From assembly GCA_019828595.1 (NCBI GenBank), contig JAHQRK010000001.1, positions 3,844,001 to 3,908,000 of the forward strand: a stretch of 64,000 nt of DNA, given 5' to 3'. The notes beneath the pieces were generated by a model that worked only from the letters and a program-made list of their open reading frames with translations, was not told the DNA's origin and made no database searches. This DNA comes from Aphanomyces cochlioides. Lineage: Eukaryota; Oomycota; Saprolegniomycetes; Saprolegniales; Verrucalvaceae. The position numbers and the translations under genes were made by a program. Position 1 is the first letter of the stretch. The number at the start of each line of letters is the position of its first letter. This document shows, piece after piece, positions 4,289 to 48,159 of this stretch.

Positions 4289-4307
4289 ATCCGGATACTT
4301 TATCCGG
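4289..4307. promoter_or_regulatory. ATCCGGAT element with adjacent TATCCGG
   Basis: Exact palindrome ATCCGGAT at 4289-4296, followed by a partial copy TATCCGG at 4301-4307. It lies about 73-90 bp upstream of the ATG of the sulfate-activation gene. This is one of the recurring upstream elements in the window; a transcription-factor site is inferred. Confidence 0.6.
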
Positions 4308-4474
4308 CAGAACAATCCAAATTGTTCCATGTTCGAAAAATGAAGTCCTCGATGGTCCGTCCGAACCAAGCGAGCGCGCCATTTCTCGGGCTCATGTCTG
4401 AATGACGGCAGGGTTGTAAGATAGAGCGATGGGAAATGACGATTGTCAACGTGCCGCTTGGTGTAGGATGCTTC

Positions 4475-4517
4475 AAGGCTGTCTGAGGAACATCGACAAC
4501 ACCAATCAGACAGCCTT
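4475..4517. repeat. Perfect 12-bp inverted repeat with 19-bp loop
   Basis: AAGGCTGTCTGA at 4475-4486 is the exact reverse complement of TCAGACAGCCTT at 4506-4517. The two arms could form a hairpin in DNA or RNA. No gene was identified over it. It could be an RNA element, a protein-binding site or a small mobile-element footprint. Confidence 0.6.
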
Positions 4518-4944
4518 GAGGAACAATCATTTCTTCAGATACCAGGATGTGCCCGACCAGGGCTCAACACGAAATGCAAGTTCGCATGTGTCTTCGCATT
4601 ATGGAGAACTTGATTTTGAAATCTATTGTACAAAGCGATAGACGCAGTCTTGAGGGCCAGGATGAGGACGAGTTTGGAGATGTCATCAACCATGAATAAC
4701 CATCAAATCCTCCACAAGTCTAGAGTCGCCAAGCGTGGCGCGTTTGTTGTAGAATCGACAAGCATTCAACTTTCGCCACACTCTTCCCGTATTGGGGCAT
4801 TCCTGTCAAGAAAGGCAACGGAGAGATGTGTCAGAGTGGTTGAGCGGATAACTGGGTTGGTCTTAACGAGGGGTATAAAGATCGTATTAAAGTCATTCAC
4901 AGAACAGTCTGCTGCACGGTGGATCCATCGTGATGCTCTCTATG

Positions 4945-6100
4945 TTAAATCAGCACCTTTTCTGTCCAGTCTAGGTCTATCTCCATGTATGGATATCCTC
5001 CTCTTGCTTGCTGGGCGCTAGATCGCTCGCGTTTCATCACGCCTTCGACGTCCATTTGTCGCATTCCAAATGTATACGACCCATTGACATCCACCGCGTC
5101 GTCTTCATTGGGCGGCATGACACCCAGTCCCAAGGAACCCAGCTCATCCATTCTACAATTAGGGGTCACGTCAGTATGCATGCTCCATCATGCATACTGG
5201 TTTTGTAGCGATCGCCACTGTATTTGAGATTCCATGCTGTGACTTCCCGAGTGCCACGGGTCGGAGGAATGGTGGCTAGAGCTGTGGTGAGATGGATATA
5301 CGATTCCTTGCAATCTTACCTGTACTGTGATGAGTGCATCCACGCCTCAGGTTTCGGCGAAATCCCGCCGACACCAGATTCAACTAAAGACCTGTGCGCA
5401 GGAGGTGAGACAACAATAATTCGATCGTCAGACCGAATTCGATCATGCGCTTCAGGCCTCGGAGTCATTTGCTCTTCTGTGTCCTCCTGCCATCAAATGA
5501 GTAAATCGCACGACTCCAGTCGAGCCGTACATCAAATACTGCGTCAACCCTGCCCGACATTTTGTTATTGCGTCGCATCTCCCGCCTCTGCTTGGCAAAC
5601 CTACGGCAATACGTCAACCTTGATCGCTTAATGCATACTGTGCGTACCAGCGATTTTTGATGGCATTGTCGGTACGCCCATGAAACAGCTTGGCAATCTT
5701 GCTCCACTGGTTTCCATGTTCAGCGTGTGCTGCTTCAAGTAGCTCCTCTTCTTCATGTGTCCACGGTCCCTTTTTAATCGATGCATCTACAGATCTATGT
5801 CTAGCCACAACGAATGCCTGATCACGGCGTACCCAGGTGATTGTGCCAGCGTTCTCGACACTGTTTTCCCGTTCGCATGACACCACTTGTGCTTTCGTCA
5901 TTGAGAACTTTGGCGAGCTTGGACCAATGTTTGCATCCAAGCCGCGCGACCAAGGTGATAATCAACTGGTCTTCATCTGGACTCCACGCCTTCTTGCCGC
6001 CTTTTTCCCTCGACAACGAGTACTTCTCATCGTAGATCTCGCCCATCGTGTTGCAGTGCATGCTATACAGACAATTTAGATGAGAAATCGATCCATCCAA
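4945..6100 (-). CDS. R2R3-type MYB transcription factor
   Basis: Five exons: 6100-5833, 5786-5648, 5600-5540, 5486-5320 and 5152-4945, giving about 280 residues. Two MYB repeats are clear. The first begins KAWSPDEDQL and ends CRERWHNHL; the second begins KGPWTHEEEELL and ends AIKNRWFAKQRREMRR. The first intron falls between the repeats, so that WHNHL joins DASIKKGPW, the expected linker. R2R3 MYBs bind DNA in the nucleus and regulate transcription. The C-terminal exons encode a Pro/Ser/acidic tail without a recognised domain. The last intron (5153-5319) is 167 bp, much longer than the others, so a small exon may be missing there. The start could be internal (the MGEIYDEK methionine). Confidence 0.85.
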
Positions 6101-6352
6101 CCTCGCCAGGGTGTATCGACGGCGTCTCGTCGGCTTGAGTAGTGAAGAAACGCGATCTGGAATTTAACAGTCGCGATCCTTTGAAATATTTTTAGCCAAT
6201 CATGAGGCAGTATGAGGAGATATCAACAGTTGTATTGTGAATCGCTTCACTGTATAACGCATACAATTTTCAAGTCTAATCATACATTTGTACTTTCAAT
6301 GTATGTACGTGAGATCTCAGTCCAAAAACTGTACAAGATAATATATTAAAAT

Positions 6353-8061
6353 ATGGGGGATATCGCCGACATTCTCGGCCTAAGCGGCGGTGGAGCTGCG
6401 GCCGGCAACGGAACACCTCCAGCCAAGCCGAAGAAAGAAGACAAGCAAAAGCCGAAAGCAAAGATCAACAGAGAAGTTTTGCTACTCCAAGAAAATATCA
6501 ATGCTGGTGGACTCGCTATGGGCCTCGGTGGCCGATCGCACGTGTCGGTCATGCCGAGCAGCCAACTGCCCATGAAGAAATCGCTATTGCAACAACGACC
6601 TGCATTGCGCAATAAATGGTATACCTAACTCTGCTGATGGAAAATCACTGAGTGATTCTCTAGGGTACGCCGCGAGTTTACAAACGCAGCACGAAATGAC
6701 GGACTGGTACTGACACATTGGGTCAAATCCTCGCTCCCAGAAGGACTTGAATACCCTTTTGCACGATTCAACGTGACTTGCGAAGTGTCAGCTTGCTGCA
6801 CAAAAGACGAATACGAGAAAGATCTCTTGACGCATCAAGATCCATTGATTCCAACACCATGGAACTTTGACGATACTGTGTTTCTGTGGGATTTGTGCAA
6901 GCGATATGAGCTGCGATGGATCGTGATTGCGGATCGATTCAATAGCCAAGTTCCGTCAAAGCAGTCTCGCTCCATTGAAGATATCAAATACTGGTACTAT
7001 GAAGTTACAAGGCTGTTGTCAGAGCGACGAAATGCAAAAACAGAGGAGACTGCTCCAGTCGTCCCAGAGGCAACCACTGCGACAGCAACAACATCTTCCA
7101 CTGAGACACCAACGACGGAAGAAGCTGCAGTTGAGCCTACAGTGGAGGCAACAAAGGTTTCACCAGATGTATCACAACCTCCAAGCTTCCGCTACCATAT
7201 TGCATACGAGAAGCAACGCAAAGCACAGTTGGAACTTCAGTTCAATCGCTCCAATGCTGAGGAATCGGCAATCAAGAAACTGCAGGAAGAGTTGCGAAAT
7301 GTCGAGCAGCAAATCAAGAAGGCTGTGCTGCGAGTCGACATGAAGAAGAAAAAGGTACGTCGATCAATGCTTCGCTGTGGGAAAGTCTCATGGCCTCAAA
7401 GGAATTGGCAGAAGCACGGCATCAATTCACACGTGAAGTTCCCACAGGCGTTTACTTTCGAAGTACATCTCAAGCTCTTCCTACACAAAAAATGGGTCTC
7501 AGTGCCAAACTTTCCAAGAAACTCTCGCTCATGCTCGACGAAGTACGTAGCCTCAAGATTGTTTCTTGAACTCATACCTCGTTCAGTTTGGCATTCCTGC
7601 ACGACCCATGCCGACCAAAGCAGTATGCGAAGGTTTTGATAAAGTTCGTCAAGACATTCTATCACTCCTTGCACTGCGGAAGACACTCACATCCAAAGTC
7701 AACGAAGTTCACGCGCTGACCGACAAATACAGCCAGGCAACAGGTACACATCATAGCCTCCGTTGAAAAGTTTCTCTGACACATTGACTACAGGAGTGTC
7801 ATATACTCCCCGTGCAAAGCATCAGCCATTGGATCCACCCATTGGAGGTGGAGTGAGCGAGGCAACGCCTTCAGCAACACCTCTTGCATTGACGCCAGCA
7901 ACAGGCTCGTCCAAAGTTTCGGTAAGCTTTTCAACGATGCAGAGGATATGTATCCATATCGATGCGATGGTTAGCAAAAAGGCGGATCTAGCATCAAACG
8001 CAAGATTGGCGGCGCGGCAGCAGCAGCGGCGTCCGGGAAGCGTCCCAAGAAAGTCGCTTAA
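6353..8061 (+). CDS. DMAP1/SWC4-like subunit of NuA4/SWR1 chromatin complexes
   Basis: Six exons (6353-6618, 6664-7354, 7402-7542, 7587-7743, 7794-7921, 7975-8061) give about 489 residues, close to the usual DMAP1 size. The N-terminus reads MGDIADILGL, typical of the family, followed by INREVLLLQEN, the SANT-like region (WNFDDTVFLWDLCKRYELRW with KYWYYEVTRLL), a Thr/Ala-rich linker, a long coiled coil and a conserved C-terminal part (FGIPARPMPTK). The family bridges histone H4/H2A acetyltransferase and H2A.Z-loading complexes in the nucleus. The last exon ends in a basic KRPKKVA tail that may be a nuclear localisation signal. The 7355-7401 intron boundary is the least certain. It converges on the poly(A)-binding protein gene with about 100 bp between. 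Confidence 0.88.
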
Positions 8062-8165
8062 TCGACTCATGGAGTTCTTTTTGCTCTGACAGTGCGCTCT
8101 TATCTTTTTTCACTTTTTTTTTCATTTTGTTATTCTTTTTTCAGCGCATTTCGAGCTCTTTTTTC

Positions 8166-8855
8166 TTAATAGCCATAGGGATGGTAGCCAGGACCGCCCA
8201 TACCACGGCCACGGCCACGTCCACGACCGCCACGACCGCGGGGAGGATATCCCCCTCGTCCGGCACCACGGCCACCGCGGTATCCCCCGCGGCCGCCCCT
8301 GCCACCACGACTGGCATAGTTGAACCCGCGTTCGTTGACACGCTTGGGCGTAACTTTGAGTTGGCGTCCTCGAAAGGTCGTGTCGTTGAGGAGGAGAGCA
8401 CTCTCGACGGCATCGTGGTTTGCAAATTCAATGTAGGCGTAGCCTTTGGGTTGGCCCGTGAATTTGTCGCAGAGAATCGTGACACGATTGATCGTGCCGC
8501 AGCTCTGGAAGAGCGCTTGGAGTTCTTCTGGAGTGGATTCGTAGTCGACTTGGCCAATGTAAATAGAGTTTTCGTCGATGACCATTTGCTGCGCAGCGGT
8601 AGGGGTCGCAGCTGGAGCGAGCTCCTTGGGAATTTGTGCTTGGACGTGGCTGTGCATTTGGTTAAGTTTCTGTGCTTCCTCTTCCATTTCAAGCACACGA
8701 CGCTTCATGTCTTCAATTTCTTGATCGACTTCTTGCTCTCCGCCGTTGTCAATGGCATCGGTTTGCATTTGTTCTACGTCTTGGTCGGCGGCGTCCATCG
8801 GCTTCGAGGGTGGTTTTGAACTCTGGGGGGGAGTGGTTGTCGTTAATGGCTCCAA
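8166..8855 (-). CDS. Nuclear poly(A)-binding protein (PABPN1/PABP2-like)
   Basis: Single exon, 229 residues. An acidic N-terminus is followed by a short coiled coil (EIEDMKRRVLEMEEEAQKL), one RRM with RNP2 SIYIGQVDY and RNP1 KGYAYIEF, and an Arg/Gly-rich C-terminal tail. This domain order, with a helical segment before a single RRM and an RGG tail, is that of PABPN1, which binds nascent poly(A) tails in the nucleus and controls their length. The RGG tail is a likely arginine methylation region. The 5' flank abuts the left end of the transposon at 8900, only 45 bp upstream of its ATG, so the element has inserted in its promoter or 5' UTR. Confidence 0.93.
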   Translation of the reverse strand: MEPLTTTTPPQSSKPPSKPMDAADQDVEQMQTDAIDNGGEQEVDQEIEDMKRRVLEMEEEAQKLNQMHSHVQAQIPKELAPAATPTAAQQMVIDENSIYIGQVDYESTPEELQALFQSCGTINRVTILCDKFTGQPKGYAYIEFANHDAVESALLLNDTTFRGRQLKVTPKRVNERGFNYASRGGRGGRGGYRGGRGAGRGGYPPRGRGGRGRGRGRGMGGPGYHPYGY

Positions 8856-8899
8856 TGCAAATTTACAAAAAATCCAAATTAATTCTAAAAATTAGATTA

Positions 8900-8920
8900 T
8901 TGATCTGGCCAAAAGTTATC
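8900..8920 (+). repeat. Left terminal inverted repeat of the transposon
   Basis: TTGATCTGGCCAAAAGTTAT and the next base (8900-8920) pair with 10869-10889, with a single mismatch over 21 bp. Preceded by TA. Confidence 0.85.
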
Positions 8921-9024
8921 GTGGACGGCAATTTGTATTTTTATTCATCATCACATACTTACACCAAAATAAACCATTCATGGATATAAAATAACACGAT
9001 TGAGCGTCTGAATCTTACGCTTTG

Positions 9025-10547
9025 ATGGACCCCAGGCACTCTCAAATCCGACAAGAAATGGCCGAGATACCCAAGGCGAAACATCGGCTTTCCCAGGCCG
9101 AGAAGATGATGGTTGTGCGCGTCCACGCGTATTTTATCAATGAAGCAGCCGAACAAACAGCGCAAAAGAAAAAGCGAGTGCTGAGCTTGGTAGCACAAGC
9201 TTGTGGCATTTCAGAGAGCACTGTGTCAGTCATCGTCGCTTCCTACAATCGATGCGGCGACCCAACTCAATTCATGTCAGAAACTCTGCAACAAAATACA
9301 TCATCAAAACGTGAATCCAAATACACAGATTCAATAGTCACTGTGCTTCGCGAGCTTGTTTACACACGCAACAAAGCTGTCCAACCGATAACCGCCAAGC
9401 TTTTGGCACTTGATCTGAGAGAGAAGTAAGGAAATCATTCAATATGCGTGTTTTAAGTTTCATAGGGCAGGACTCTTTATACCGGACCGGTCACTGCGAC
9501 GGATCCTTACAAACAATGGATTCTATTTTGGCCGAGGCAAAAAGTGACAATACTGCGCTGAGTCCACAGCAAATCTTGCATTTCGTGCTGTCTACTTACG
9601 TACGAAACTGGCCAATTTGACAAGGAAGAACCTGCCTGCCAAGCCTGAAATTTTTCTAGAGGAGTCATACTGCAATCTGCATCATGTTTCGCAATTGGCA
9701 TGGAACGATAGCACGGTTGACGGTGGTGTGCAGTATGAAAAAAGCGGCAAGGGTCCACGTGTATGCATGGTGGGAGCTGGCGTTGTATGGTCACAACATG
9801 ATCGCGTGTCAGCTGAGTGGATCACTGGCTCATTTTTATGCTGGAATTCTATGAAATCATAGCGAAAAAGTTGCGACAACGACGATGACGACGATTACCA
9901 TGGCAACTTCAACGCCGCGATCGTCGAGTCGTGGTTTGAGATGATGTGCGCTGTCGCGCAGCGTGAACACGGTTCATGCTTGACACATATGGACTGTGCT
10001 TCCTACCATAATCGTCAAGTGAATCATGCTCCTACGGCGGCGTTCCGAAAGGCCTCAATCGTGGAATGCCTGAATGACAATAGAATACCCTTCGATCACT
10101 TGTCCACAAAAGCGGAGCTGCTGCAACTTGCTCGTTTGCACCGACCCAAAGCTGTTTATCGTACGACCCAGATTGCTATGGAGTTTGGTCATATTGTGCG
10201 ATGGACACCGCCTTACCACCCAGAACTCAATCCAATCGAGCTTGTCTGGGCAAACATCCAGCGTCGTGTAGCAATGGACCCTGCTTCAAACATGCGGGAC
10301 TTGGAGTCGAAGGCAAGCTTGTGTCTAAACGTTCATGACTTCATTGTAGGTTCGATCATTTCACCTCCTTGTCGATGGAGATCAATGGTATCGATATTGG
10401 CAGCATAGCCAAAAGTTCGAATTCAAGTATGCGGCGATGATGGACGAGGAAGTTGATGACTCCTTGGAGATGCTTGAGCCAGAGGAAGGCGTCATGGACT
10501 GCTCGGCATCAGACAGTGCATCATGTGACGACTTCGTTTTGTTATAA
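9025..10547 (+). pseudogene. Degenerate DDE-superfamily transposase
   Basis: N-terminal helix-turn-helix region (SQAEKMMVV; ACGISESTVSVIV) is followed by a possible 41-bp intron near 9426-9466, then DDE core blocks: LEESYCNLHH, DYHGNFN, MDCASYHN and HPELNPIELVW. The C-terminus is acidic and ends at 10547. Lesions seen: a frame change near 9545, an in-frame TAG at 9860-9862 inside an otherwise continuous frame, and Glu in LEES where related transposases have the first catalytic Asp. The frame of the acidic tail is restored if 10313-10349 is a GC-AG intron; otherwise this is another frameshift. Transposases of this type cut and paste the element between its inverted repeats. Confidence 0.75.
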
Positions 10548-10868
10548 AATATTAGTTCCCATTCATACAATTTGCAAGTGATTTAATTGGAAACAAACAA
10601 ATCGTAATAATAATAAAATAAAAGAATGCACACGAAATATAAAAGATTAAAAAACGGAAAACGACAATTATATTTTTAACCCTACCCCAGATAGCGTGTG
10701 TCCAAATCGATGCCGCCGCTCATTGTGCACGTATCTCCGTGGATATTCGTCGCTTCGAGTTTTGCCCAGAAATAGATGTGCCAGAATATTTGTTGACAAC
10801 ACGATGGTGCCTGGGGTATGCACTGGCATCTTCATTTAATCAATGAAAATGGTCTTCATTTGGTGCAT

Positions 10869-10889
10869 GATAACTTTTGTCCAGATCAA
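10869..10889 (-). repeat. Right terminal inverted repeat of the transposon
   Basis: GATAACTTTTGTCCAGATCA and the next base, followed by TA. Reverse complement of the left terminal repeat with one mismatch. Confidence 0.85.
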
Positions 10890-10891
10890 TA

Positions 10892-11297
10892 AGATTTTGT
10901 ACTTTATTTTTATTTTTGTATTTTATTTTTCAGATTTAAAGTTTAATTGTGATGTTCTTTCAAAGATTCACATGGAAGCAACGCAACAACAGACGACATC
11001 GCAGTCGCTCTCTTGCACTTGATCCAGAAGAGCTTCATGCGTTCCACAAGACTATCCAGAGAATGAACAAGCCATAGTGCGAGCTGTGCAGCTGTGTTGA
11101 CCACACTCCCTATGACTACCGCCATTTAGTGAATATGACTTGACGAACTTGAACGACCAAATAGTGCAACCAACTCGACATGCTCCCGTGCTCCGAAGGC
11201 GATCGTTAAGAAGCTCGAGCTCTTGCAGTTTCCTTATTGCCAAGAATATCTGCTCGATCTCTAAAAATACGTCTGGAAGCTTTGGTATTCCTGGATT
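10892..11297 (+). other. Upstream region of the acidic coiled-coil ORF, possible broken exons
   Basis: Two stretches look protein-like on the plus strand: one reading ALDPEELHAFHKTIQRMNKP before a stop near 11080, and one (about 11200-11297) reading LELLQFPYCQEYLLDL, then a TAA, then KYVWKLWYSWI running directly into the next ORF. Either unrecognised short introns or gene decay next to the transposon would explain this. No family was recognised. Confidence 0.35.
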
Positions 11298-12732: not shown

Positions 12733-14289
12733 TGGCGTGCGACCTGCTCTGCGATGAGATCCTCATATTCTCTCGACAAATCGTCTCACCGTCCAGCATC
12801 GAGTGATTGGGAGAGTGGTGGCGCTTACAAACTTTTGCAATTCGCGACCAAGTGCCATGAGTAACATGCTGTACACAACCTGGATTTGCTCAAGAAGCAT
12901 CACCCTTCACTCCGATTCGACACATCTTCCTCCCAACGACGACATGCTTCATCACGTCCTCCTTCTTCTATTTTCACACAATCCGAATGCAAACTTCCGC
13001 ATAATGCCAAAATTATCCGGATCAGTGAAAAATCAATGTAAAATTTCGTTATTCGACGACCAGACTCATCATATCCTCCTGTAGTTTTAGGCGACAAAAT
13101 ATTTTTTGATTTATTTTGTGAATTTTCTCAACGAATTTTATTGGATTTTTTGTATAGGGCCGGTGAAATATCGACAATGCAGCTCAATCAGACTGGGGCT
13201 ACAACGCAAGCAACAAAATATGAAAGGCTCTGGCTGCGTGGAATCCGCCATCCAAGACCGCGTCGCACAGCCCCCTCTTCCCACATTTACACTACGCGCA
13301 TACTTGTACAGTGTACAACTACCGCGGGGGAGAAGGAAGCAGCGATCGGCGCGTTTTAAGGGCGACCAGCTACTTGCGCGACATGCCAAACCAAGAGACA
13401 AAGGTTTTGATACACTTCATCTTTCTGGGCGTTGCAAATGTAAGTCACGGCGAGGCACCAACAGGGTGTACCAACGTGTGCGAGGCCTTTTGTTGCACTC
13501 AAAAGAACGAACGGGCGCTCTCGTACATGGCTCAAATGCTCTCGAACGAATCGACTGTCTAGCCTGACAACAACAGAGAGCGGTGGGATATCACAACAAA
13601 GAATAAGCTGGGCAAAATGGGTTTGAATCTTTGCATATGGTCTAATTTTGGATTTGGATTGCGAAAAAGATACAAAAAATATGGTGTATTTTTTCCATTT
13701 TATAGCGGATTTTTCAAAAAAATAGCCAAAAAGTGCAAACTTTGAAGTGATATTGCCAAGGTCGTGTTCATATCGCATGGATATGTATTGTTTGGCCAAG
13801 TTTACTTGCTGGAGGATCTTTCTTACAATTGCGACGTCGATTATTTTCATGAAAGGAGTCTTGACATAAGCCGTCTTGAATCTGTGCGATCAGACGTTGA
13901 TGAAGGCATAAGTTGACAAGAATGCTCTTGACCAAAGCGGTCAGAACTTTTAAATTATTGACTGTTGTGAATAACGTCATGAATTCCACAAGATTGCAAA
14001 TCAAGCTCATGATCTTGGGCAATGAAGCTTGATCGATATGATGGACAATTCAGGTAGATTATGGCAGGATAGGAGGATGGGCAGACCTGCCAGTACAGTG
14101 CATGGTCGACTTTCTGATGTGCCTCCAAGCATAAACAGAATTGGGAAAATAAAAATAGTAAAGAATGAATTTCAGGATTTTCTGAATTATCCGCTATTTG
14201 TCGGGTGATTTTCTGTGATTTTTCGAGTTTTGTCACAGGCTGGCTTGAATTTGGTGGACTCGACACTAGCAACTTTGTCCAAGACAACC
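12733..14289. other. Gene-poor interval, no confident gene
   Basis: About 1.5 kb between the SANT-like gene and MYG1. Contains one ATCCGGAT at 13015. Overlapping open frames at 13106-13567 (both strands) and minus-strand frames at 13356-14022 reach 80-160 residues, but the frames compete, lack recognisable domains and do not join across plausible short introns. The interval may hold a decayed element or a long promoter. Confidence 0.5.
13015..13022. promoter_or_regulatory. ATCCGGAT element
   Basis: Exact ATCCGGAT palindrome about 280 bp upstream of the SANT-like gene start; a near match, ATCCGAAT, lies at about 12981. Part of the window-wide recurring element. Confidence 0.45.
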
Positions 14290-15500: not shown

Positions 15501-15571
15501 ACTTAAGATGCTGCAACTCGATGGACATCCAGCATAATTGTCAAAGCTTTCTCTCATGTTACAATTATATA

Positions 15572-17932: not shown

Positions 17933-18655
17933 GACGTCTCAACCGCGCCAAATGAAGAATGGCGTTTCATTCTCGAGCTTCTCTTCGTTGTTTACACAAC
18001 AGCTCGCGTCTTGAACTTGCAAAGATCGGACCAATCAGAGCGAACCGACCTATGCTTTGTCAACACCATGGATGAACAGGTGCATCCGGATAATATCCGG
18101 ATGTGCCGACATCATCACAATCTTGTGGTTTACGCATCAGAGGTTGGGATTGTATCGATCGCGTGCGGCGAACCATTCGTTCCGTCTTGGGTTGTCTGCG
18201 CTCCTTTGTGCTTCCGCGATTGTATTGTTGTCCCCACCCCCCGCAACAATGCGTTTCACGTTGAATTTGCGATATATTCTGAAACAGCTGCCATCTCAGC
18301 GACACCGCTGATTTGGCTGATTTGGTGTCCACGATTCGTACTATACTCATTCGCTTGCGAAACATGTCACGCATCCGACGAATACCAAAACACTTTGACT
18401 CTTGGAATGAAATCTCGTGCAGAATTGTTGAGATTATGGCGTTCCAGCGAGTTAGACGCGAGTACTCGGGTTGTGTTGTTTGTCGACAGTCAAGACGCTT
18501 GATTCCAGTGTCTATTTATAGAAGCTGACGCGATCTGAGTGCAAGTCACTTGACAGGCTTACACTTTACACTTTACATGTTACGGTAATGTTGACGGGAT
18601 AGATTGTGATTGGTTAAAATATAAAATTAGGTGGGAAGTTTCACCCAAAGTCAAA
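17933..18655. other. Intergenic, promoter region between divergent genes
   Basis: Holds the CCAATCA box at 18031, two ATCCGGAT copies (18084-18102) and, near 18610, GATTGGTTAAAATATAAAAT upstream of the small plus-strand ORF. A short tandem ACACTTTACACTTTACA lies near 18560. No convincing gene. Confidence 0.5.
18084..18102. promoter_or_regulatory. Two ATCCGGAT elements one helical turn apart
   Basis: ATCCGGAT at 18084-18091 and at 18095-18102, start to start 11 bp, so both sites face the same side of the helix. They lie 152-170 bp upstream of the carnitine acyltransferase ATG. Cooperative binding is inferred. Confidence 0.6.
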
Positions 18656-18943: not shown

Positions 18944-19130
18944 AAACGTTTTTCACATGGTGAAAAATAGGGAGAATGTTGGTACCTCAAGTTGATTTTC
19001 CACAAGATGGGAAATTCCGGATAAAACCGGCACGATCAGACACATCCGGATAATAATTTTGCACAAGTGTTTAATATTACCTGTGAAAAAGTGTGAAAAA
19101 TGTGCAAAATGTTTTAAACTGTGAAAAATG
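18918..19130 (+). repeat. Diverged direct repeat around a TGTGCAAAA/GTGAAAA motif array
   Basis: Copy A (18918-18948) and copy B (19101-19130) share the order TGTGCAAAA, C/TGTTTTAAAC, GTGAAAA. Further GTGAAAA, TTTTTCAC and GTGCAAAA units fill 18890-19140, in both orientations. An ATCCGGAT element lies between the copies. Non-coding; a regulatory or replication-related role is possible but unproven. Confidence 0.5.
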
Positions 19131-21925: not shown

Positions 21926-21969
21926 CAACCTCCTTTGATTTAATTTTCTATTAAGATATTCCGTTAGTA

Positions 21970-23575: not shown

Positions 23576-25004
23576 CTCGCGGTCTTGAGGCGACCGCGCT
23601 GGGACTAATGGGTGGCTATACACGACAGTGTAAGGAAACCTTTCTCCCTCGAGCGATGCACGGACCTCGTGGCATTCATCGCAGCGCGCTTGTTGGAAGT
23701 TGCGTCGAGACCCACGGAAGACCAACTCAGAGAGCAAACGTCGTTTCGGAGTAAATGACTTGTTTTTTGTATAGACATGCTAATTTTTTAAATTATTGCA
23801 CGAAACGAAGGTGCTCTCACCTCTATATTTAAGGCAACTAACCATTGCATCGAGTCCAAATTCTTCCCTTCTCCAAGCAAACGAAACGAAGATTCTTTGC
23901 GATTAGAAGCATTCTCAGCGGCAACGCACTGCAAAGTCCTGGTCATTTCGGTGCAAAAGTCGCTGACGTCCGCTGCTGATGTGATATTCACACTTTCAAT
24001 CAATAAATATAAATAAATATTTATGTGGACAATAAATTATTGTTGCCATTGCATGAAAGTGACATTGTGTTGCTTCAAATGAGACGAATACGAGGAGGTT
24101 CTGCGCATCGATCTCGTTTGACAGCGACAGGGGCTTCGTGCAGAGCAGCGAAGGTTTGCGGAGAGCTTCTCGAGTGTAAATATTGAGAAATTGTATTGGC
24201 TGGCACAAATAATTGTTTGCTTTCTTGGCCGATGCGACGAGAACCTCCTGAGCATCGACGATGAATCATCTATGCCATGACATTTCTTTGCCTCCTTAGC
24301 TCCTTAGAGAAGGAGAAACCCAAAAAGTGCATCGGGGCTATCTTGCCAAAGGGTATTAGATCAATCTCTATGGAATAGCCCCTCTATTGCATGTTGAAGG
24401 CTTGTTGAAAGCCTCGCTGTCGAGCCAAAGTAAGACTTTCGTGTCATTATCTCAGACCATCTTAGAGCGCCGCCTGCAATTTCGTTTATGCGCTCAAACT
24501 CTTTCAGCCTGCTGCTGCTGCTTAGAGTGAATTGAATGCACTGAAAGGCGCCGGTAATGCTATCAGCAGATTGGATCTCGTAGAGGGCAGTCTTCTCGGT
24601 CCAATGGATGTGCCGGGGGCGGTTAACATCCTCTACGTGCTTCTATCGAAATTGCCGACGCGATGATAATGCTGCCTTTGGATCAACTTTCAAGAGTACC
24701 AAACGCCCAGGCTGTTGAACGCCCCAGTCATTGTCGTCCGTAACGCACGCCAGGCCTCAGATATTGAGCTAGAATACAAAGAAGTTGAATGTATTACGCG
24801 CGGCTTGCAAAGGCATAACCGCTCCGGCTCAGCTTTAGATGAAAGATGACGTCCGCCTTTCCAATGGTCGGACGAATCACACATGGACGGCCACCATGTT
24901 GATGATCTTCCATGGACGCATCGACATCCGGATGGATCAGCTTATCCGGATGACCATTGCCTTGAAACTTTAATGCATTTTTGATTTTCTCCGGTGAATC
25001 CAAC
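23576..25004. other. Intergenic, no confident gene
   Basis: About 1.4 kb between divergent presenilin and oxoprolinase genes. A minus-strand frame at 23788-24003 looks mildly protein-like, and 24330-24780 contains scattered protein-like stretches interrupted by stops, perhaps a decayed gene. No family recognised. The oxoprolinase-proximal end carries two ATCCGGAT elements. Confidence 0.45.
24926..24951. promoter_or_regulatory. Two ATCCGGAT elements upstream of 5-oxoprolinase
   Basis: ATCCGGAT at 24926-24933 and 24944-24951, 18 bp apart start to start, 54-79 bp upstream of the ATG at 25005. Confidence 0.65.
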
Positions 25005-30505: not shown

Positions 30506-31347
30506 TTTTTGTTTGCGCATCCAAGTCTCCGGATAATGTGTCATCCGGATAATACAATTCAAGGTCGGAAAATCCGGATAAAGAGGTAGCAATACGGATA
30601 ACTCTGGCATATTTACGGATAAAACAGCACGCACAGACAATCGACATGCTGGACGGCATTGTCTTTGCTGTCGAGCACACTTGCTTACATTTGGACAAAA
30701 GCACGCTCATGAAGATTTTTCAGAGAGGATTTTAAGCTTGTCGATTCTGTACCCCATGTCGCAAAAGACCATGGCCCAGGGGTTCACTCTTTTGAACTGC
30801 CCAGCAGGGAAACATGGAAGAAAGCACGGATGCATCTTTATCAACTATCCGATTGTGGTGGCTCTCTAAGATCTAGACAAGATGCCCAGTCAAGCCATCT
30901 CAGCACTAATGAGCTCGATGATATGTGATGCCTAAATCGTTCATCTCGTCCACTTCCAGTAAATAACACTATGGATCTGCAATGTAGCCCAACTTACAAA
31001 TGGCAGACATGATTCCGTCCGGCAACTTGGCGCGTTGGCAGTATTCATGCATCACAAAAGGTCATCTCACTGTGGCCATTCTCTCACGAGGTGTCGGTTC
31101 CGAGGACGTCGAGAAGATCCAATGTGCTGGATGACAATCGGATAACTGGCCCTGGCTTTTGATTGGTCGTTGGATGACCAATGCGACGTGGAATAGTCTA
31201 TTTTTATCACCTCTTCGATAATTTAAATATAAAAGTTAAATATCAATACTCAAATTAAGTATGATGAGCATATTTTTAATGATTAATTCCAAGACACCAA
31301 CATTCTGCATTCATTGCCCATATATTATTCGCCAAAGCTTCTTCGAT
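30506..31347. other. Divergent promoter region
   Basis: Contains the GGATAA cluster at 30528-30622 next to the methyltransferase and a GATTGGTC/CCAAT pair near 31160 on the oxidised-gene-free side facing the OTU gene. No supported gene; small open frames lack domains. Confidence 0.45.
30528..30622. promoter_or_regulatory. Cluster of five GGATAA sites including two ATCCGGAT
   Basis: GGATAA starts at 30531, 30548, 30576, 30596 and 30617, all in one orientation. The second and third are within full ATCCGGATAA; the last two are ACGGATAA. The cluster begins 23 bp upstream of the methyltransferase ATG, on its opposite strand. Confidence 0.65.
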
Positions 31348-35239: not shown

Positions 35240-35278
35240 GACGACCGACAAATCAAAACCAACGACAAAACGTTGATT

Positions 35279-39525: not shown

Positions 39526-41246
39526 GACTGGCTGTTCTTGGGTGCGTCCTTGCGAGAAAATTAAAAAATGACTTAGTATTTGACGTGGAGAGAGGAGCGA
39601 AGCCCGTTTGCGTCACCAATGCAATGATACTAGGCTTCCATTGACAATAATATCTCACCAATAAACATTTCTGGATTAAATTCTCATATAAATCATGTCA
39701 TTTTTATAAAAATCTTAAAGAGGACAATATTGACCCATGACGGTGAGATTATTATTAGTAGGTCTTTTAACGGCTATACAATAATCAAGATAATATTAAT
39801 TTGTACAATTGTAGTAGTACTAGGAAGATCAGAATCAAATGTTCTTTTTCCAGATGAAGTAAAAAAAATGTCTGGAACTAAGTGGATAAAGCCCAGACGG
39901 TTGAAGTGAAAGACGGCGCGGACGGAAGGAGCGTGCAGGACGAGGAAGGCAACAAAATAGAGCGAACCGACGCAAGTGAGCGAGCGAGGCGTTGTCAGGA
40001 TGGAGAAAGAGTCGTTTGATGTGGATTTATATGGCTGGGAGTAATCCAGGATCAAGGAAAGCGACCGGATCTATGTGAAAAACGCATCTGGTGGTTGGTG
40101 GTGCTGTGGTGGGTAAAACAGCATCAGGTCCAGGCTGTGTATCTGTGATGAAAGGTGATGTGCAGGAAGAGGACACAAGGTATTTCATCATCGCAACGGA
40201 GGATACCCCATGAACTGGCTGAATGTATGAAGAGGATTCTTCCTCGGTATTTTTCGTGGGATATCATGATCATTGCGCAGTGAAATCCGTGGAATGACGT
40301 ATGTCAAGGAAATCAACTCGCCGCGCAAATTCTTGAAGTTGCCGCCAGGTTTGATGTGGACAACACTCGGTCCTCTCGCAATCTGTTGGGGAAACATCCG
40401 TGGATGTGTCAACAAGCTTGCAGAACAAAGGTGTGAACAGGAAGACAGTAACGGGTTACGGTCTCGAATGGTTCGACGGATTGCGTTGTGTAAAGCGCGT
40501 GAAAAGATTTCAACGCTGGGTGATTTGGCTGTTGCTAGCCAATGTGCAAAACAAACGATTTTGGAGACCCCTCCTGTCTCAACGAGCTGAGTGATGTGTC
40601 CTCGTCCGATTCAAATGAAGAGGCGTTACTTCTATCATTGCCTACGTCCAAACATTTCCTGGGAAGTGTATCGCTATGCCAAGACTCTCGCTGACGGCCC
40701 CATTTGAGAACTTTCGTGACAGCTAGCAAATGATCTGCCATACCAACAGCCCTCGATCTCTCAGGGTGCTGTCAACGAATAAAGCTGAGATCCCAAACAA
40801 GTTTCCAGGGCGGCGAGTCTGTTGACAAATTCCGATGCTCTACACCAGGTCAGAGTACTGAAGCCCACTGGAACTGGTGGCATATTTTGTCAGTCTTGGT
40901 TTCAATCGTCTCTCTCCGGTCGTCTCACCTTCAACTCCCTAAAAGTCCTCTCAGGACTATCAAGCGCGCTCATGGACGGTCGTGGCATCTACACCAGGAA
41001 GATGACCAACTCGTGATCGAGAGGCGGGAGACAGCCGACAAGTGGATTGTCTACGGCGGCATCGTCGTCGTCCTCGGCTTCATGTGGGTGGTCCTTCCAT
41101 CATCCAGTCAACAGAATTTGAAAATGCTCCATTTCGGATCTTTCAAATTCTAGCCAATGGAATTTAAGAAAGAATTTGATTGGTTAAAATTAGGCTCGTG
41201 ATTCTCTGAATGACTCGGATCATTATCCGGATTTTTCATTGCCATC
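39526..41246. other. Gene-poor interval with one possible tail-anchored ORF
   Basis: About 1.7 kb. A plus-strand frame ending at 41153 reads HLHQEDDQLVIERRETADKW, followed by a strong membrane segment (IVYGGIVVVLGFMWVVL) and a short tail; it lacks its own ATG and could be the last exon of a small tail-anchored protein. Frames at 40273-40594 have no recognisable domain. Near the 3' side, CCAAT (41154) and GATTGGTTAAAAT (41178) precede the gephyrin-like gene. Confidence 0.35.
41225..41232. promoter_or_regulatory. ATCCGGAT element next to the MoeA-MogA start
   Basis: Exact ATCCGGAT ending 14 bp before the ATG at 41247. This is the shortest distance in the window and implies that the element overlaps the transcription start or lies in a short 5' leader. 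Confidence 0.6.
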
Positions 41247-43726
41247 ATGAGCTGCAATTGCTCCGACGGCGTCGGCAGTCTTCGCAACAGTCCTTATGAC
41301 ATGATTCCGATGCAGGAAGCGATCAACACTGTACTGAGAGAAGCCCAGCCGCTATTGAAGACCACTGTGTCGCTGCAAGAAGTACGATATCTATCCTTCT
41401 CTGCGATTCTAACTCTTGAACCCGGGACAGGCGCTGGGATGCGTTCTCGCTGAGACCGTGAAAGCTAAGGTATGAATACCCCCTTGAACTTTCAGTCCTT
41501 ATGAAGCATTCAGGAACCACTACCTCCTTTTCGCGCCTCTGTGATGGATGGATATGCAGTTGTAGCCAGTGATGGGGTTGGAGAGGTCTGGGAATTGTTC
41601 CCTCTCAAATCTTTATTCACCCATGCCTGTCGATAGTTTCCTTTACTAAGTCGTGTGGCTGCTGGAGATGCCCCCGGACTATCCATCAAGCCAGGCTACT
41701 TGTTATACGTGACGACGGGCTCCCCTGTTCCTGACGGTGCTGATGCTGTTGTCAAAATTGAAGACACGGAGGCTGTTCTCAATGAAGTACGTAGATGCAC
41801 CACTAACTTCTTTGCTCATTCGTTCCAACCAGGCTGGTCAAGAGGTTGCCATCAAGATCTTGCATGCTGTCACACCTGGAACGAGCATTCGTCCGATTGG
41901 ATACGACATTCAGCAAGATGAAATCGTGGTTGAAGCGGGTGAAGTCATCACACCAGCCGTCCTTGGTCTCCTTGCAACGGTTAGACATCCTCCCCGACAA
42001 CTCTCCTAAAACCTTGCGTGTAGGTCGGTGAGTCAAGCGTGTCAGTCTTTCGCAAACCTGTCGTTGGTGTGCTTTCTACGGGGAGCGAGCTCGTGGATGC
42101 ATCACATTCCATCCATGATGGCAAGATCCGAGACAGCAATCGACCTATGCTCTTGTCGTACTTGCAACAGCTTCATGTTCGCACAGTAGATCTAGGTTCT
42201 CTCTGCCGCTGGACTTTAATTACTGATGGCGTTCGCGTAGGTATCTGCTCGGATAAATGGGACTCGTTGCGGTCGCTTCTTTTGTCCAAACTACCTTCCA
42301 TCGACGTCCTCATCACTAGTGGCGGTGTCAGCATGGTACTCCAGTCAGTCTTCAGCAACTAGCCTGACGACTCTCTTCTCAGGGTGAACACGACCTCGTC
42401 AAGCCATTGCTCAAAGAGCTCGGGAAGATTCATTTCGGACGCATTCACATGAAACCCGGCAAGCCCACGACATTTGCTACGGTGAGTTTTCATTCTTGTT
42501 TGTCATCTTACTTTGTCGTAGGTCCAAGTTGAAAATGTTCCCAAGCTCGTCTTTGCACTACCGGGCAATCCCGTGAGCTGTCTTGTGACTGCCTGCCTTC
42601 TTGTGCAGCCTGCACTTAAACGCCTCAGTGGTCATGACGTTGCAACCTCTGCGCCGGTTACATTCCGGGCTCGCCTACAACATGACTTGCCGCTCGACAA
42701 AGAACGTCCAGAGTACCATCGCGCTGTTGTCAACTGGAGTGCGCAAAATGAATGGGTGGCGACAAGTACCGGTGTACAAGCCAGTAGTCGACTCCTAAGG
42801 TTTGTGTCTTCGAAATGCTCGATGGTCTCAATTTGTCATACTTGTAGCTGCCGTCATGCCAATGCTTTGCTTTATCTCCCAGTAGGCACTCGCATTGAAG
42901 CTGGTGCTTTGGTCGACTGCATCTTCCTTACCGAGACGGTTCGTTCTAGACTCAGCGGGAGAATTTCAAAGTTGTTGGGCTGTAGGGCTTGTCGTCAACA
43001 CCTACGTCCATTCCAATTCCAAGTATTCCTCCACCAAAAGCGGCCTCATCGTCCGCCAAGAAGGCTTTAAAAGTCCGTGCTTGTGTCCTCACGGTGCTTT
43101 CAATGGTTCTACCTGGCCGTTCTTTACTCAGGCGATAGGTGAGCGATCGTGTCTCGCGTGGTGAAGCTGAAGATCGCAGTGGTCCGACCATGCAAAAGAA
43201 ATTACAAGGTAAATTGCAATCTTTGCATAAGGTAGCACGGATTAATCATGGACTGTGTAGACATCCCAGGACTTGATGTCGAGATTGTCCAGGCTGCTGT
43301 GGTTCCTGATGAGCGCGAGGAGATCCAAGACATTGTCAAGACGTGGTCGGACGACAAGCGTGTTGATGTCATAGTCACGTCGGGAGGGACTGGATTTAGT
43401 CCTCGTGATATTACTCCCGAAGCCATCAAGGTACGTCTTCTGCCTGCTTTTTCTCGACTGATGATACAATCCAGCCGCTCTTGCATCGAGAAGCGCCTGG
43501 TTTAGTCCATAAAATGATGGCAGCGTCGCTTGAAGTGACGCCGATGGCGATTTTAGCTCGCCCGATTGCTGGAACTCGCAACCAGACGCTCGTGATCACA
43601 TTGCCAGGAAAACCCAACGCTGTCGTCGAAACGATCGACGCTCTTGCCCCAGTCTTGCCCCACGCGTTGCATTTACTTCAGGACGTATCGCACGGTCACC
43701 ATCAAGGCAAAGTCGATGCCAAGTAG
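41247..43726 (+). CDS. Gephyrin/Cnx1-like molybdenum cofactor protein (MoeA-MogA fusion)
   Basis: Fourteen exons give about 625 residues. E (MoeA) domain first: ALGCVLAETVKAKEPLPPF, RASVMDGYAV, TTGSPVPDGADAVVKIEDTE, VGVLSTGSELVD, DSNRPMLLSYL, ITSGGVSMGEHD and LPGNPVSC. A Pro/Ser linker (IPIPSIPPPKAASSSAKK) leads to the G (MogA) domain: VLTVSDRVSRGEAEDRSG, VVPDE, VIVTSGGTGFSPRD and ITLPGKPNA. MogA adenylates molybdopterin and MoeA inserts molybdate, giving the molybdenum cofactor for enzymes such as nitrate reductase and sulfite oxidase. The E-then-G order is that of plant Cnx1; animal gephyrin has the reverse. Exon starts: 41247, 41431, 41514, 41637, 41833, 42024, 42241, 42383, 42522, 42848, 42986, 43139, 43261, 43475. 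It ends 14 bp from the convergent phosphatase gene. Confidence 0.93.
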
Positions 43727-43740
43727 GAAGGTCTTCGACG

Positions 43741-44750
43741 TCAACGTCGCTGCTCAAGGCGGTACATGTTGAGTTGGTAGAAATCCCAGACTGGATCCGT
43801 CGACGCGATCACTGACGACGACTCAAAGAGCGTAATCTAACGAGCGTCGCGTTGTGGCTACACTTGTCTTGCGAGTAGACGAGACTGACCTCATACATGG
43901 CTAGCTCCATCCGAAATGCTGGACTTGGATTCATCACGGGACGCTTTCGCTTGACGAAGTCGTATGCTTGGACGAGCAGCATGCTCCGATGCTTCATCAA
44001 ATACGCCACGACCAAACTCGCCGAGCGAGAAGCCCCTGGAGGATAACAGCCGCAAGATCAACCAAGTCGCTCAGGTGGCTCTACCTGCGATGCAATGCAC
44101 CAAGACGCAACCCCCAATGCTCCGAGCATTTTCGATGAAATCCGCGGCCGTATTGAATGCTCTCGAGAGACGCTGCGTCGCCGAGTCTTCGAGATGGAGA
44201 TGGAGATACGTGAACTGGTCGCGGAAGTGGTTCTCGCATTGCACTGCGGCGTTGCAAATATGCGTAATGCCAACGCTATCGAGCAAATTTCGGTCCTGCG
44301 CAGCGGCGCTGCTGCCGATGTACAGAAAGGGTAAGATGCGATCCATCGGTTGCGTCGGCAGCGTCTGGACCCCAAAGAATCGACCGACCCAGCTCGCCAA
44401 CGACCGCAAGATCGACGCGTCTTCGGCATCGCTCGCACGCTGTTGCCGAGCCTACACATGTACGACTGAAGAATCTCTTCTTCTGCGTCGAATACCTTGG
44501 CAGCTCGAATGCGCGCTTGCTGTTCTGTGGGATTGAGAGCATGAATACTCCCGCTGTCGGAGGAACTGCGGCGAAGATAATGCGGCCGGACAGCGACTTT
44601 GTGCACCGTTCCTTTGGGCTTCCCGGTCGTCGTAGTGTCCGGCTCGGGCGTTCTTTGGACTTCATACTGGCGAACGCGTCAGTGAGCCAGTGGAACGATG
44701 CTAGCAAGTGCATACCTGACGCTCTCGGCGCTTGGCTTGAACGGAACCAT
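43741..44750 (-). CDS. Dual-specificity protein phosphatase
   Basis: Five exons (44750-44721, 44666-44456, 44420-44085, 44035-43890, 43836-43741) give about 272 residues. The DSP domain has RILPFLYIGSSAAAQDRNLL, GITHICNAA, the catalytic loop VHCIAGASRSAS (HCxxGxSRS, split by an intron) and LVVAYLMKHRSM, then KRKRPVMNPSPAF. Such enzymes remove phosphate from Ser/Thr and Tyr, often on MAP kinases. The N-terminal 80 residues are a low-complexity region. Exon 1 and the 35-bp intron at 44421-44455 are less certain than the rest; another donor choice in exon 1 would change the N-terminus. It is divergent from the coiled-coil/TM gene, 85 bp away. Confidence 0.83.
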
Positions 44751-44835
44751 GACGACGTCGCGGCATCGCAAAGTGTGCTTTTCAGTTTGACACTCTCTCG
44801 ACACTACCGAGGGATCTAATTTTAGCCCGACGTAG

Positions 44836-47806
44836 ATGGACGAAGATGACTTGGAAGCGCTTCTTCACGCCGTCGACGTGCCATCGCCCGACACAACTGC
44901 CGACCATCTAGCGATTGAATTACTCCAGGATGAGACCAAGCGCGCTGTCGACGACGAGCGAGATTACGTGGAGGAATTTGACGGGATCATCCCTGCCGCT
45001 GAAGTTGTCGTCGCGAGCATTCCCGTTGAAGTGATTCAACAGCGTGAAGCCGAGATGGAACGAGCGCGTATTCAAAAAGCACAGGTAGATGGCTCTCCTG
45101 CTGTCACATGATGAGAAACGACGACAGGACGAAGCCAAGGAGTACCAAATGCGCGAGACGCTTCTAGCGTACAAGGAAGAGAAAGCCCGCGCTCGACTCG
45201 ACCAAGCTGCAACACTGCAAAAGCAGAAACTCGCCCAGAAAGAACTCCAGAGTCTCCACGTCGTCACGCTCCAGTCGAAACAACTCTTGCACGTCTACCA
45301 CCAAGCAGAAACGCACATGAAGCACGTGCTGAGCCAGCAACAAGTTGGTCTTCGTAGCTTTGTCATGATTGTGACTTGCTCTCACAGGCGCATGTCCAAG
45401 ATACATACGGCAGCATGGAGACGACAAGAGCGCCAGTGCACAAGCGACGGTATCGCGCCGAGTGGGCTCGGATTCCACAGCCGATTGAGATTCACATCCA
45501 CATGCTGCGAGCTGTCAAGGACAAGCTTCCGATCGGCCATTATGTCATTCTAGCGACGCTGTACGACCGTCTTGGCGGACATCCAATTACGTGGACGGTG
45601 GCAGGCGATCGTGGCGTCGGTGCTGGGTTTCCAGGACTCACGACGCCGTTGCTGCACCGCGGACGCTTCTACGACACGGAATTCACCGTGGGTCAAAATG
45701 TCCATGTCGTCTGTCCACCACAGATTGAACTGCGACCAGGTACTTAGTTGCATCTCCATGGCTTGCACTCACTTCCTCTTGCAGCGAATGTCGTTTTGTT
45801 TGAAGTGTACATGCTGAGCAACAACTACAGTAGCGAGACCACAACGAGAGACGTCGTCGTCGCGTGGGGCGTTCTTCCAGTGTGCAATGCTGACTTTGGC
45901 GTCGTGGCGGGCTGCTTCAAAGTCCCGCTCATCCGTGGCGACGTCGACCACACGATCACCAAGTTTCGCGTACGCTTCTTGTCGTTCTGCCACGTCATGA
46001 CTTTGTGTAGGATATTGAGCACATGCACTCGACGGATCTCTCGTCGTGGCTGTGCAATATGTACGTCACGGTGCGCCATTTGCCACGAGAACGACTCGAC
46101 GCCGCGGGCATCCTCCAGCGGGAATACGACGTCGAGTTGGATTTCATGAACCAATTGCTCAAATTGGACGACACGACGCGGAAGAATCTCGCTCAGGACG
46201 GCCAAGAGAGTTCATGGCAGCGACGTCGACGACGCAAAGGCAGCAGTCAACCAACCATGCTGAGGAGCGTCGAGGGAGGCAGTATGAAGTCCATGAACCA
46301 GCGGAGGAAAGCTCCAAATGGACTGTCGAAAGTTGCTCCGACGATCCAAGATGACGACGAGAACGATAAAACGAAACGCCATGGAGGAGCGATTATTCCA
46401 CTGTCACCGCCATCGTCAAGATCGTGGCGGCATTGGTTCCGTCGCCGACGAAAGCGCAATCATCGAGAGTCGGTGCCGCGAGATTTAGCCGCGCAGAACG
46501 CAACCACGGACGATGTTCATGACGAGCAAGGCGACGACGAAGAGGACGACACTGGAGCCGCGACGGCGCCAACGCCAGCGCATGCTCGAACATGGGAAGG
46601 GTTTACCTTTTCAACCAACCATTATGTGGACGACCAAGTCGCCAAGCACGAACGCTTTCAATCGTTCCGCAAGCTGCGCTACCTCCAGCAAGAGGTTCTC
46701 TTCCTCATCATGTCGTCGTCTAATTCATGCTGTAGCTCTTCGCCGACATGGGACTGCAGAATGCATCGACGTGGCAATTCTGGCTCCTCATCGTCTTCTT
46801 GCTCCTCGCGCTGTGGCTCCGAGTGTACATCCACTACCTCGGTCAGTGGCTCTATCTCCGTGGCTCGAATGTGCCCGTCTTTGACTTTCGGCCGCAACTC
46901 ATCACGTGCGTCCTCAAGTACACTTGGAATACGATCCCGACCGCGACGGAAATTGGAGTCATCACGCTGGGCGTCATGTTCAATATTTTGGCGTTCGGCG
47001 CGTTCATGGCGACGGCGTGGCTTTGCCAGCATCTCATCGGTGAATTCCCAGACATTGGATCCAACTTTATAGCGTGCTTTGGGCTCGCCACGGTCTTTGA
47101 TCCTCTCCTCGTGCTTGCTGTCGACTTGATCCAACATAATTATGACTGTGGCTCGACATGCACCGACCCGTCCGCGGCGCTTTGCACGTAAGTCGAGACT
47201 CTCTTTGATCTCCTCAGTGAGCTGTCTTGTAGATGTATCGAAGGGGATGCATTCAAGCTCTACAAACGCTTCAAGAGCCAAGATGGATCGGGCGTTGTCG
47301 GTGTTGTGCTCACTCTGCTGCTGTATGGTATCCTCATGTGTGTCGCGGCAGTCGTTTTCTACACCTACTTGCTGCATTTCCACATGAATGGACGCATGCT
47401 CGACGTGTACCGCCGAGTCCACGCCCGCGAGGGAGTCTTCTTTGTCCCGAACGACTTTGAAGTGTCGGCCGCCGATGTTGCGCTCCTCTGCGAGAAGGCT
47501 GCACGGTGGAAATCCATCAAGGGAACGCAGCGTAAAACCGCCGTCTGCGAATACGAACTCCGCGACCCTGCGGATCCATCCTTTGTCGAGACAACTGTAC
47601 ATATTGCGATATTCAACCTCGAATTGGATGGCTCACGTCAGCTCTATCGTCACTTCATCAAGAACCCCGACGGCGAAATTCTCGAAGTGTTTGGCACAAT
47701 CTCGGACAGCCTGGGGTCTCAATACTCTACGCTCGAGTCGGCTCTCTTCCAAACCGCACCACTTGAAGATGACTCGCCACACATCGGGCTCTTTGACGCG
47801 TTGTAA
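44836..47806 (+). CDS. Large coiled-coil, C2-like, four-TM protein of unknown function
   Basis: Seven exons (44836-45084, 45128-45343, 45388-45739, 45785-45969, 46011-46694, 46736-47187, 47233-47806) give about 903 residues. Order: acidic N-terminus; long Lys/Glu/Gln coiled coil (about residues 65-150); a beta-rich C2-like region starting PQPIEIHIHMLRAVKDKLPI; a low-complexity basic/acidic linker; then four membrane segments (WQFWLLIVFLLLALWL; IGVITLGVMFNILAFGAF; LATVFDPLLVLAVDLI; VVLTLLLYGILMCVAAVV) and a C-terminal soluble domain of about 150 residues. All splice junctions keep frame. The layout recalls transmembrane proteins of flagella/cilia, but no family is recognised and none is claimed. 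Confidence 0.75.
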
Positions 47807-48159
47807 CTCGGAAAATCTCAGCGTGTTACCATTTTTCTGTGCGGCCCCTACCTACGGTCGATCCACAATGCGAGTGATCGCCGCCTACGCTTGCCGCTCC
47901 CACGCAATCCAGTTGCTGGGAATTCTTCCATATAGGACGGATATACAATACACGCTGCCATAACTCTAGCAGAGCGACCTCGATCCGTCCATTTCTTCCT
48001 CTCTGTCTTCCTGCCATCACTTTTCATATACGTCAAACCCAAATATACATGTTATCCGGAACCACGCATATCCGGATGTATTCACCGGATAATGTTTCAT
48101 TATCCAGTCAATTCCGGATAAATTAGTTGTAACCGGATAGATCATTCCAAACCAACTCG
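47807..48159. other. Promoter region of the SWSAP1-like gene
   Basis: Short intergenic stretch whose last 110 bp hold a dense cluster of CCGGAT-type elements. Nothing else recognised. Confidence 0.5.
48054..48138. promoter_or_regulatory. Cluster of CCGGAT-type elements
   Basis: Related sites: ATCCGGAA (48054), ATCCGGAT (48070-48077), ACCGGATAA (48084), TTATCC (about 48099), TTCCGGATAA (48112) and ACCGGATA (48132). The cluster ends 22 bp before the ATG at 48160. Densest group of this element in the window. Confidence 0.65.

Follow-up and report, generated by a model that had tools for sequence, protein, structure and literature searches.

In a 64-kb stretch of Aphanomyces cochlioides DNA (C1:3844001-3908000, referred to below as the window; genome 76.2 Mb, 94 contigs), 11 copies of the 8-bp palindrome ATCCGGAT were identified. 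ATCCGGAT is the core of TATCCGGATA (extended form TTATCCGGATAA), which is very probably a proximal-promoter element, that is, a site in double-stranded DNA for a putative symmetric-dimer protein, shared by a mixed gene set as a general activator site. The element would act as double-stranded DNA 0 to ~150 bp upstream of start codons, where a sequence-specific protein would bind TATCCGGATA as a symmetric dimer.

Copies were counted in the window and over the whole genome. The 11 exact copies had been listed, all with correct coordinates, in an earlier sequence-only reading of this DNA; 1.08 were expected by chance (shuffle mean), and none of 100 shuffles reached 11. The genome-wide scan proposed there gave 4570 copies, compared with 163 for the reversed-spelling control and 488 for TACCGGTA. 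The latter is the better yardstick, because it matches ATCCGGAT in composition and CCGG centre and because a reversed control is not always fair (that of TACCGGTA gave 2260 copies against its own 488). The 10-mer TATCCGGATA occurred 1586 times and its reversed form once. Such over-representation against matched words is as expected of a proximal-promoter transcription-factor site. The window is richer than the genome mean (11 copies in 64 kb versus 1 per 16.7 kb). The first 1.25 Mb of C1 contains 100 copies of ATCCGGAT, which were grouped into 73 clusters (split at gaps >300 bp), ~49 of them single copies, and from which ~3300 places were extrapolated for the genome; six of the 100 are part of a tandem array described below.

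Position relative to genes was analysed in a 224-kb sample consisting of the window and two 80-kb stretches (from contigs C4 and C67). Coding blocks, covering 46 % of the sample, were predicted with an iterated hexamer score; both block ends and gene groups should be taken as approximate. None of the 25 exact copies was found in predicted coding sequence, 18 lay within 200 bp upstream of a predicted coding-sequence 5′ end (random noncoding positions, 15.6 %), and none lay within 200 bp of a predicted 3′ end (random, 13.6 %). This is the upstream excess that the sequence-only reading had proposed to look for. By stretch, the upstream share was 7/11 in the window, 3/5 in C4 and 8/9 in C67 (random in C67, 17.9 %). 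To check for shaping of the coding score by the motif itself, 19 motif hexamers were neutralised; the position counts all stayed the same. A wider set (ATCCGGAT or TCCGGATA) comprised 36 sites, one of them coding, and its density per kb fell from 2.62 (0-50 bp upstream) to 1.25 (50-100 bp) and ~0.45 (100-200 bp), then 0.12, 0.07, 0.20 and 0.09 further out. Twenty-three of its 35 noncoding sites were located within 200 bp, against a mean of 5.9 and a maximum of 16 under circular shifts (0/2000 reached 23). Among 103 predicted gene groups, 14 had an element no more than 250 bp away, in 12 cases an exact ATCCGGAT.

The sequence-only reading had placed the window copies outside the gene models and mostly just upstream of start codons, and both statements were borne out. 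None of the 11 lies in a predicted coding block, and nine lie 14 to ~165 bp upstream of a likely ATG (ATGs picked by eye; seven within 200 bp of a 5′ end by automatic prediction alone). Five copies are inside long ATG-started open reading frames (ORFs), either in upstream extensions of sense ORFs (4289, 30543, 30572) or in an antisense ORF (18084, 18095); the hexamer score puts the likely starts downstream of all five. Near copies, also mentioned in the same reading, occur in the window as CCGGATAA. Exact and near copies in the window are as follows:

4289..4296: ATCCGGAT (in TTATCCGGATAC context), 72 bp upstream of likely ATG 4216 (minus strand) of an APS kinase/ATP sulfurylase/pyrophosphatase fusion gene
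4300..4307, minus strand: near copy CCGGATAA, partial dyad
13015..13022: ATCCGGAT, no confident start codon near; a predicted minus-strand block is 274 bp off
18084..18091: ATCCGGAT, 151 bp upstream of ATG 17932 (minus strand), carnitine acyltransferase
18095..18102: ATCCGGAT, 162 bp upstream of the same ATG 17932 (minus strand); 11 bp start to start from the 18084 copy
19017..19024, plus strand: near copy CCGGATAA
19044..19051: ATCCGGAT, 1.1 kb upstream of the carnitine acyltransferase gene; no closer gene found
24926..24933: ATCCGGAT, 71 bp upstream of likely ATG 25005 (plus strand), 5-oxoprolinase gene (family matched in later exons)
24944..24951: ATCCGGAT, 53 bp upstream of likely ATG 25005 (plus strand); 18 bp start to start from the 24926 copy
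30529..30536, plus strand: near copy CCGGATAA
30543..30550: ATCCGGAT, 37 bp upstream of likely ATG 30505 (minus strand), methyltransferase; 67 bp if the start is 30475
30572..30579: ATCCGGAT, 66 bp upstream of ATG 30505 (minus strand; 96 bp if 30475); 29 bp start to start from the 30543 copy
41225..41232: ATCCGGAT, 14 bp upstream of likely ATG 41247 (plus strand); frames below are MoeA/MogA-like by eye only
48052..48059, minus strand: near copy CCGGATAA
48070..48077: ATCCGGAT, 82 bp upstream of likely ATG 48160 (plus strand); frame with GPPCSGKSSL, Walker-A-like by eye (the SWSAP1-like gene of the sequence-only reading)
48085..48092, plus strand: near copy CCGGATAA
48114..48121, plus strand: near copy CCGGATAA

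Several points weigh against a promoter element. The concentration upstream of gene starts, together with rarity in coding and 3′ regions, was found in the 224-kb sample and is weaker in a set of 25 motif-centred loci (25 of L001-L035, 3 kb each, overlapping or duplicate loci removed; six within the first 45 kb of C1). There, 18 of 39 copies were within 200 bp of a predicted 5′ end (background 14 %), only 11 of the 25 loci contained such a copy, and one of the 39 lay in predicted coding sequence; three lay no more than 200 bp from a 3′ end (background 13 %). Within the 224-kb sample, C67 is the only stretch picked blind, the window being the discovery set and the C4 stretch holding a double copy known beforehand (2 of its 5 copies). 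Six of the 25 exact copies were >300 bp from a predicted 5′ end, two of which (41225, 48070) are near a likely ATG on inspection. Coding sequence was predicted from the hexamer score without transcripts, which makes the 5′ ends imprecise and may have caused short first exons to be missed. Finally, the number of copies is partly inflated by a ~13.3-kb tandem repeat.

This repeat (C1:1215026-1248028) carries two ATCCGGAT per unit, and sampled 408-bp stretches were 100 % identical; the array is due either to recent amplification or to an assembly effect. Eight exact copies are also crowded into the first 11 kb of C1 (3528-11219), where little coding sequence was predicted. Neither the tandem array nor the C1 end matched a known RNA family in 9 sources. 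The array, and one copy that precedes a DDE transposase-like block by 177 bp, would suit copies that are parts of a dispersed mobile or tandem repeat. Flanks were compared in 44 records of ~1 kb each (the 25 loci and 19 clusters), and no common sequence was found beyond the element and element pairs, with the exceptions of one physically overlapping pair and one 43-bp match at 84 %. The sequence-only reading had named membership in one mobile repeat as the finding that would speak against it; the unrelated flanks in these records rule this out as a general explanation in the sample, the local C1 array aside, and the widely variable pair spacings also argue against it. A repeat origin of the copies in general is extremely improbable.

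An action of the element in RNA, as a hairpin or duplex in the 5′ untranslated region rather than in DNA, was also considered. Copies that precede likely start codons by 14 to 165 bp, and the ability of two copies to pair as a hairpin, would be compatible with this, but about 49 of the 73 C1 clusters are single copies, incapable of forming a hairpin alone, and the variable spacing does not suit a defined RNA fold. Such an RNA element is very unlikely.

The sequence requirement was assessed next. Each one-base change of ATCCGGAT occurred at 0 to 1.2 times expectation, whereas ATCCGGAT itself occurred at 7.7 times. Among the 16 NNCCGGNN palindromes in the 224-kb sample, ATCCGGAT accounted for 25 sites and each of the other 15 for 0 to 2. 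All seven perfect TATCCGGATA 10-mers in the sample were upstream of predicted genes. When 8-mers occurring upstream 6 or more times were ordered by upstream enrichment, TATCCGGA came first and ATCCGGAT second. Over the initial 144 kb, the highest 8-mer z-scores were those of TCCGGATA and CCGGATAA, followed by ATCCGGAT, whose third place is flattered because palindromes were counted on both strands (single counting: z ~9.7, roughly sixth). Partial dyads (CCGGATAA without preceding AT) made up 12 of 31 CCGGATAA and in part adjoin full copies, for example at 48052-48121.

Half-sites were then assessed away from full elements in the 224-kb sample. Upstream ratios were 0.9 for GGATAA, 0.7 for [AGT]GGATAA, 0.6 for TGGATAA, 0.9 for [AGT]GGATA, 1.0 for TATCCA and 0.5 for GATAAG; GGGATAA gave 0 (0 upstream, 6 other). 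CGGATA showed a weak upstream excess of 2.0 (8 upstream, 17 other), and AGGATAA (2.1; 2 upstream, 4 other) and CGGATAA (1.8; 3, 7) were exceptions with few sites. CCGGATA without a preceding T was not enriched (1 upstream, 5 other, 2 coding). The GATA-type sites AGATAA and TGATAA gave 1.8 and 0.7, respectively. Strong enrichment was shown by a CCGG-centred dyad with both halves largely intact. This requirement for the full dyad, together with half-sites that mostly do not track genes, suggests that the dyad is read as a whole by a symmetric dimer.

Copies are also clustered. Close pairs (0-30 bases between copies) numbered 634 genome-wide, compared with 0 for the control and ~8.5 under uniform scatter. 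A spacing of 12 was preferred (64 of the 634 pairs; mean over the 31 spacings, 20.5); the 9 pairs with this spacing in the first 50 listed overstate its genome-wide share. The linker AATT, which makes two abutting TTATCCGGATAA units, was present in 23 of the 50 forward pairs listed. With two or three copies in some promoters, at times as abutting 12-bp units, cooperative binding would be possible. At L001:1495-1528, two elements form a 34-bp perfect palindrome, which lies ~30 bp ahead of the ATG that probably starts a BED-finger exon (1553 onward).

Candidate readers were sought among the protein families encoded in the genome. Myb-domain matches numbered 93. SHAQKYF MYB proteins gave 28 matches (26 over the cut-off), 11 of which are located within 100 kb at C78:1757807-1857642. 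The [ST]HAQK helix was present in 12 of the 14 SHAQKYF stretches fetched; L052 has SHLQKYR, which is typical of GARP proteins, and L062 was not caught by the filter. For bZIP, 13 matches (11 over the cut-off) were obtained, and for BED, 11. Zn_clus (Zn2Cys6) gave no matches in the genome, but also none in the control genomes, so that its absence is not established.

A one-repeat MYB of the SHAQKYF type, binding as a homodimer to two GGATAA/TATCC half-sites, is a possible reader, put forward here tentatively. A MYB-type reader had been suggested by the sequence-only reading and is weakly supported: the proteins are encoded, but single half-sites are not clearly promoter-enriched. Published systems are compared here and below on the basis of excerpts of the papers cited. 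The half-site TATCC/GGATA equals the plant MYBST1 (GGATA) and AMYBOX2 (TATCCA) sites of one-repeat MYBs (PMC12586236), and the one-repeat MYBs of P. infestans were omitted from a published protein-binding-array study (PMC11267843). The weak excess of CGGATA would also fit. The plant boxes, however, are listed as single half-sites, whereas GGATAA, TGGATAA, [AGT]GGATA and TATCCA alone are without upstream enrichment here. Changes in the CCGG centre, where the plant sites carry other bases (TATCCA), abolish enrichment, and CCGGATA lacking the preceding T is likewise not enriched. A simple half-site model is thus unsupported. Two Myb-domain matches, ranking 2nd and 6th of the 93 in the genome, were observed at window positions 5644-5995 (minus strand; C1:3849644-3849995), ~1.3 kb away from the copy at 4289, and have the appearance of two repeats within a single gene.

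Dimers of bZIP proteins would be about as plausible as a MYB homodimer, and the assignment is similarly tentative. In this case, the basic region of a homodimer would read an 8-bp palindrome with half-site ATCC. In P. infestans, ~85 % of bZIP proteins appeared to bind palindromes, about half without an ACGT core, and the 8-mers reported include GTTCGAAC and CATCGATG; no CCGG-centred oomycete bZIP site was found in the main text of that study, figure logos aside ("ccgg", 0 matches; PMC11267843). The full-dyad dependence would suit an obligate dimer, and the bZIP matches noted above are available in the genome.

DREF is a BED protein. A DREF-like (BED-finger) reader, or another dimeric factor beyond MYB and bZIP, is unlikely. 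In Drosophila, DRE TATCGATA, the site read by DREF, is a symmetric word with the same outer halves, TATC/GATA, upstream of many genes, including many replication-related ones (PMC6619835); it differs in lacking the central CG found here and belongs to a distant lineage, and the likeness, drawn from site sequence only, is weak evidence. Eleven BED matches are in its favour. The L001 BED gene with its double element runs into frames that are DeoC-like by eye, and for this reason does not resemble a dedicated regulator; as a self-regulating reader it was dropped as weak.

Genes served were identified by Pfam scans of predicted downstream blocks, from which proteins with stops were left out; one scan set also included window genes that lack the element. 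Within 200 bp of a copy, these are genes for sulfate activation, carnitine acyltransferase, oxoprolinase, methyltransferase, EF-hand, HSF, CAF1, carbonic anhydrase, PALP, Prp18, myosin, kinesin and DnaJ. An alcohol dehydrogenase gene (L027) is 338 bp from a copy, and a CHAT block (L016) ~250 bp. For 2/10 and 3/10 downstream blocks in two scan sets, no family was obtained at E 0.01. In the window, the sulfate-activation fusion, carnitine acyltransferase, 5-oxoprolinase and methyltransferase named in the sequence-only reading were confirmed by Pfam, whereas the frames at the MoeA-MogA gene look MoeA/MogA-like by eye only and, by eye, the SWSAP1-like frame has a Walker-A-like motif. The classes served are metabolism, cytoskeleton, RNA processing, chaperone and signalling, with one HSF gene, and no common pathway was seen among the sampled genes, taken without a matched background set. 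The abundance, the unrelated flanks and the upstream concentration (weaker in the 25-locus set) strongly support a promoter element upstream of unrelated genes, as first proposed. Because the gene set is functionally mixed and amounts to ~1 in 7 predicted gene groups of the sample, the element would most likely be no switch for one pathway but a site of general activation.

Among published motifs, the one closest to the element is ATACCGGTAT of the Peronosporales (also GTACCGGTA or M94 TACCGGTA), a CCGG palindrome upstream of many genes (PMC10031896, PMC3597505). Both are 8-10-bp CCGG-centred palindromes with A/T flanks, upstream of many oomycete genes. The flanks differ, ATA-CCGG-TAT there and TAT-CCGG-ATA here, which sets the two motifs apart, and TACCGGTA was absent from the 224-kb sample (488 genome-wide). 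The Peronosporales motif is associated with gene sets in which RxLRs, proteases and transcription factors are over-represented, whereas the sampled genes here are mixed. The oomycete core-promoter elements INR, FPR and DPEP (PMC3599244) are also near gene starts, but INR and FPR are unlike ATCCGGAT, and the simple INR consensus TCATTYY had an upstream ratio of 1.0 in the 224-kb sample. In the cross-species comparison of that paper, Saprolegnia was searched with P. infestans matrices, and a lineage-specific element would for that reason have stayed hidden. In the literature searched (titles, abstract starts and some main texts, with supplements and figure logos outside), no oomycete description of ATCCGGAT was found among the papers listed; the main texts of the oomycete papers searched contained CCGGA/CCGG only as the ATACCGGTAT/TACCGGTA type, and a term search of PMC3520976 found none of the words. 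The promoter palindrome is apparently known in kind and new in sequence for this lineage.

Oomycete promoter words in the papers examined come mainly from Phytophthora and one downy mildew, with Saprolegnia as a comparison. A frequent, sharply placed word offers a straightforward entry to promoter prediction and to the regulator behind a large Aphanomyces gene set, and lets one ask whether oomycete orders rewired a general promoter code. It is doubtful, yet conceivable, that one dimeric factor, new in its specificity for a CCGG dyad, works in Aphanomyces (perhaps in all Saprolegniales) as a general promoter factor peculiar to the lineage, present at ~1 gene in 7. It would then fill the role that belongs to other promoter words in the Peronosporales, and its site would have arisen from a ATACCGGTAT-type ancestor by a flank switch.

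Two further observations were made in the window. Its choline kinase has 98 % identity to a protein of Aphanomyces euteiches and 74 % to an A. astaci protein; this single protein places the genome at or close to A. euteiches. Two adjoining zinc-ribbon-rich ORFs of similar build (only the first one scanned) at 53351-56117 are probably a tandem duplicate.

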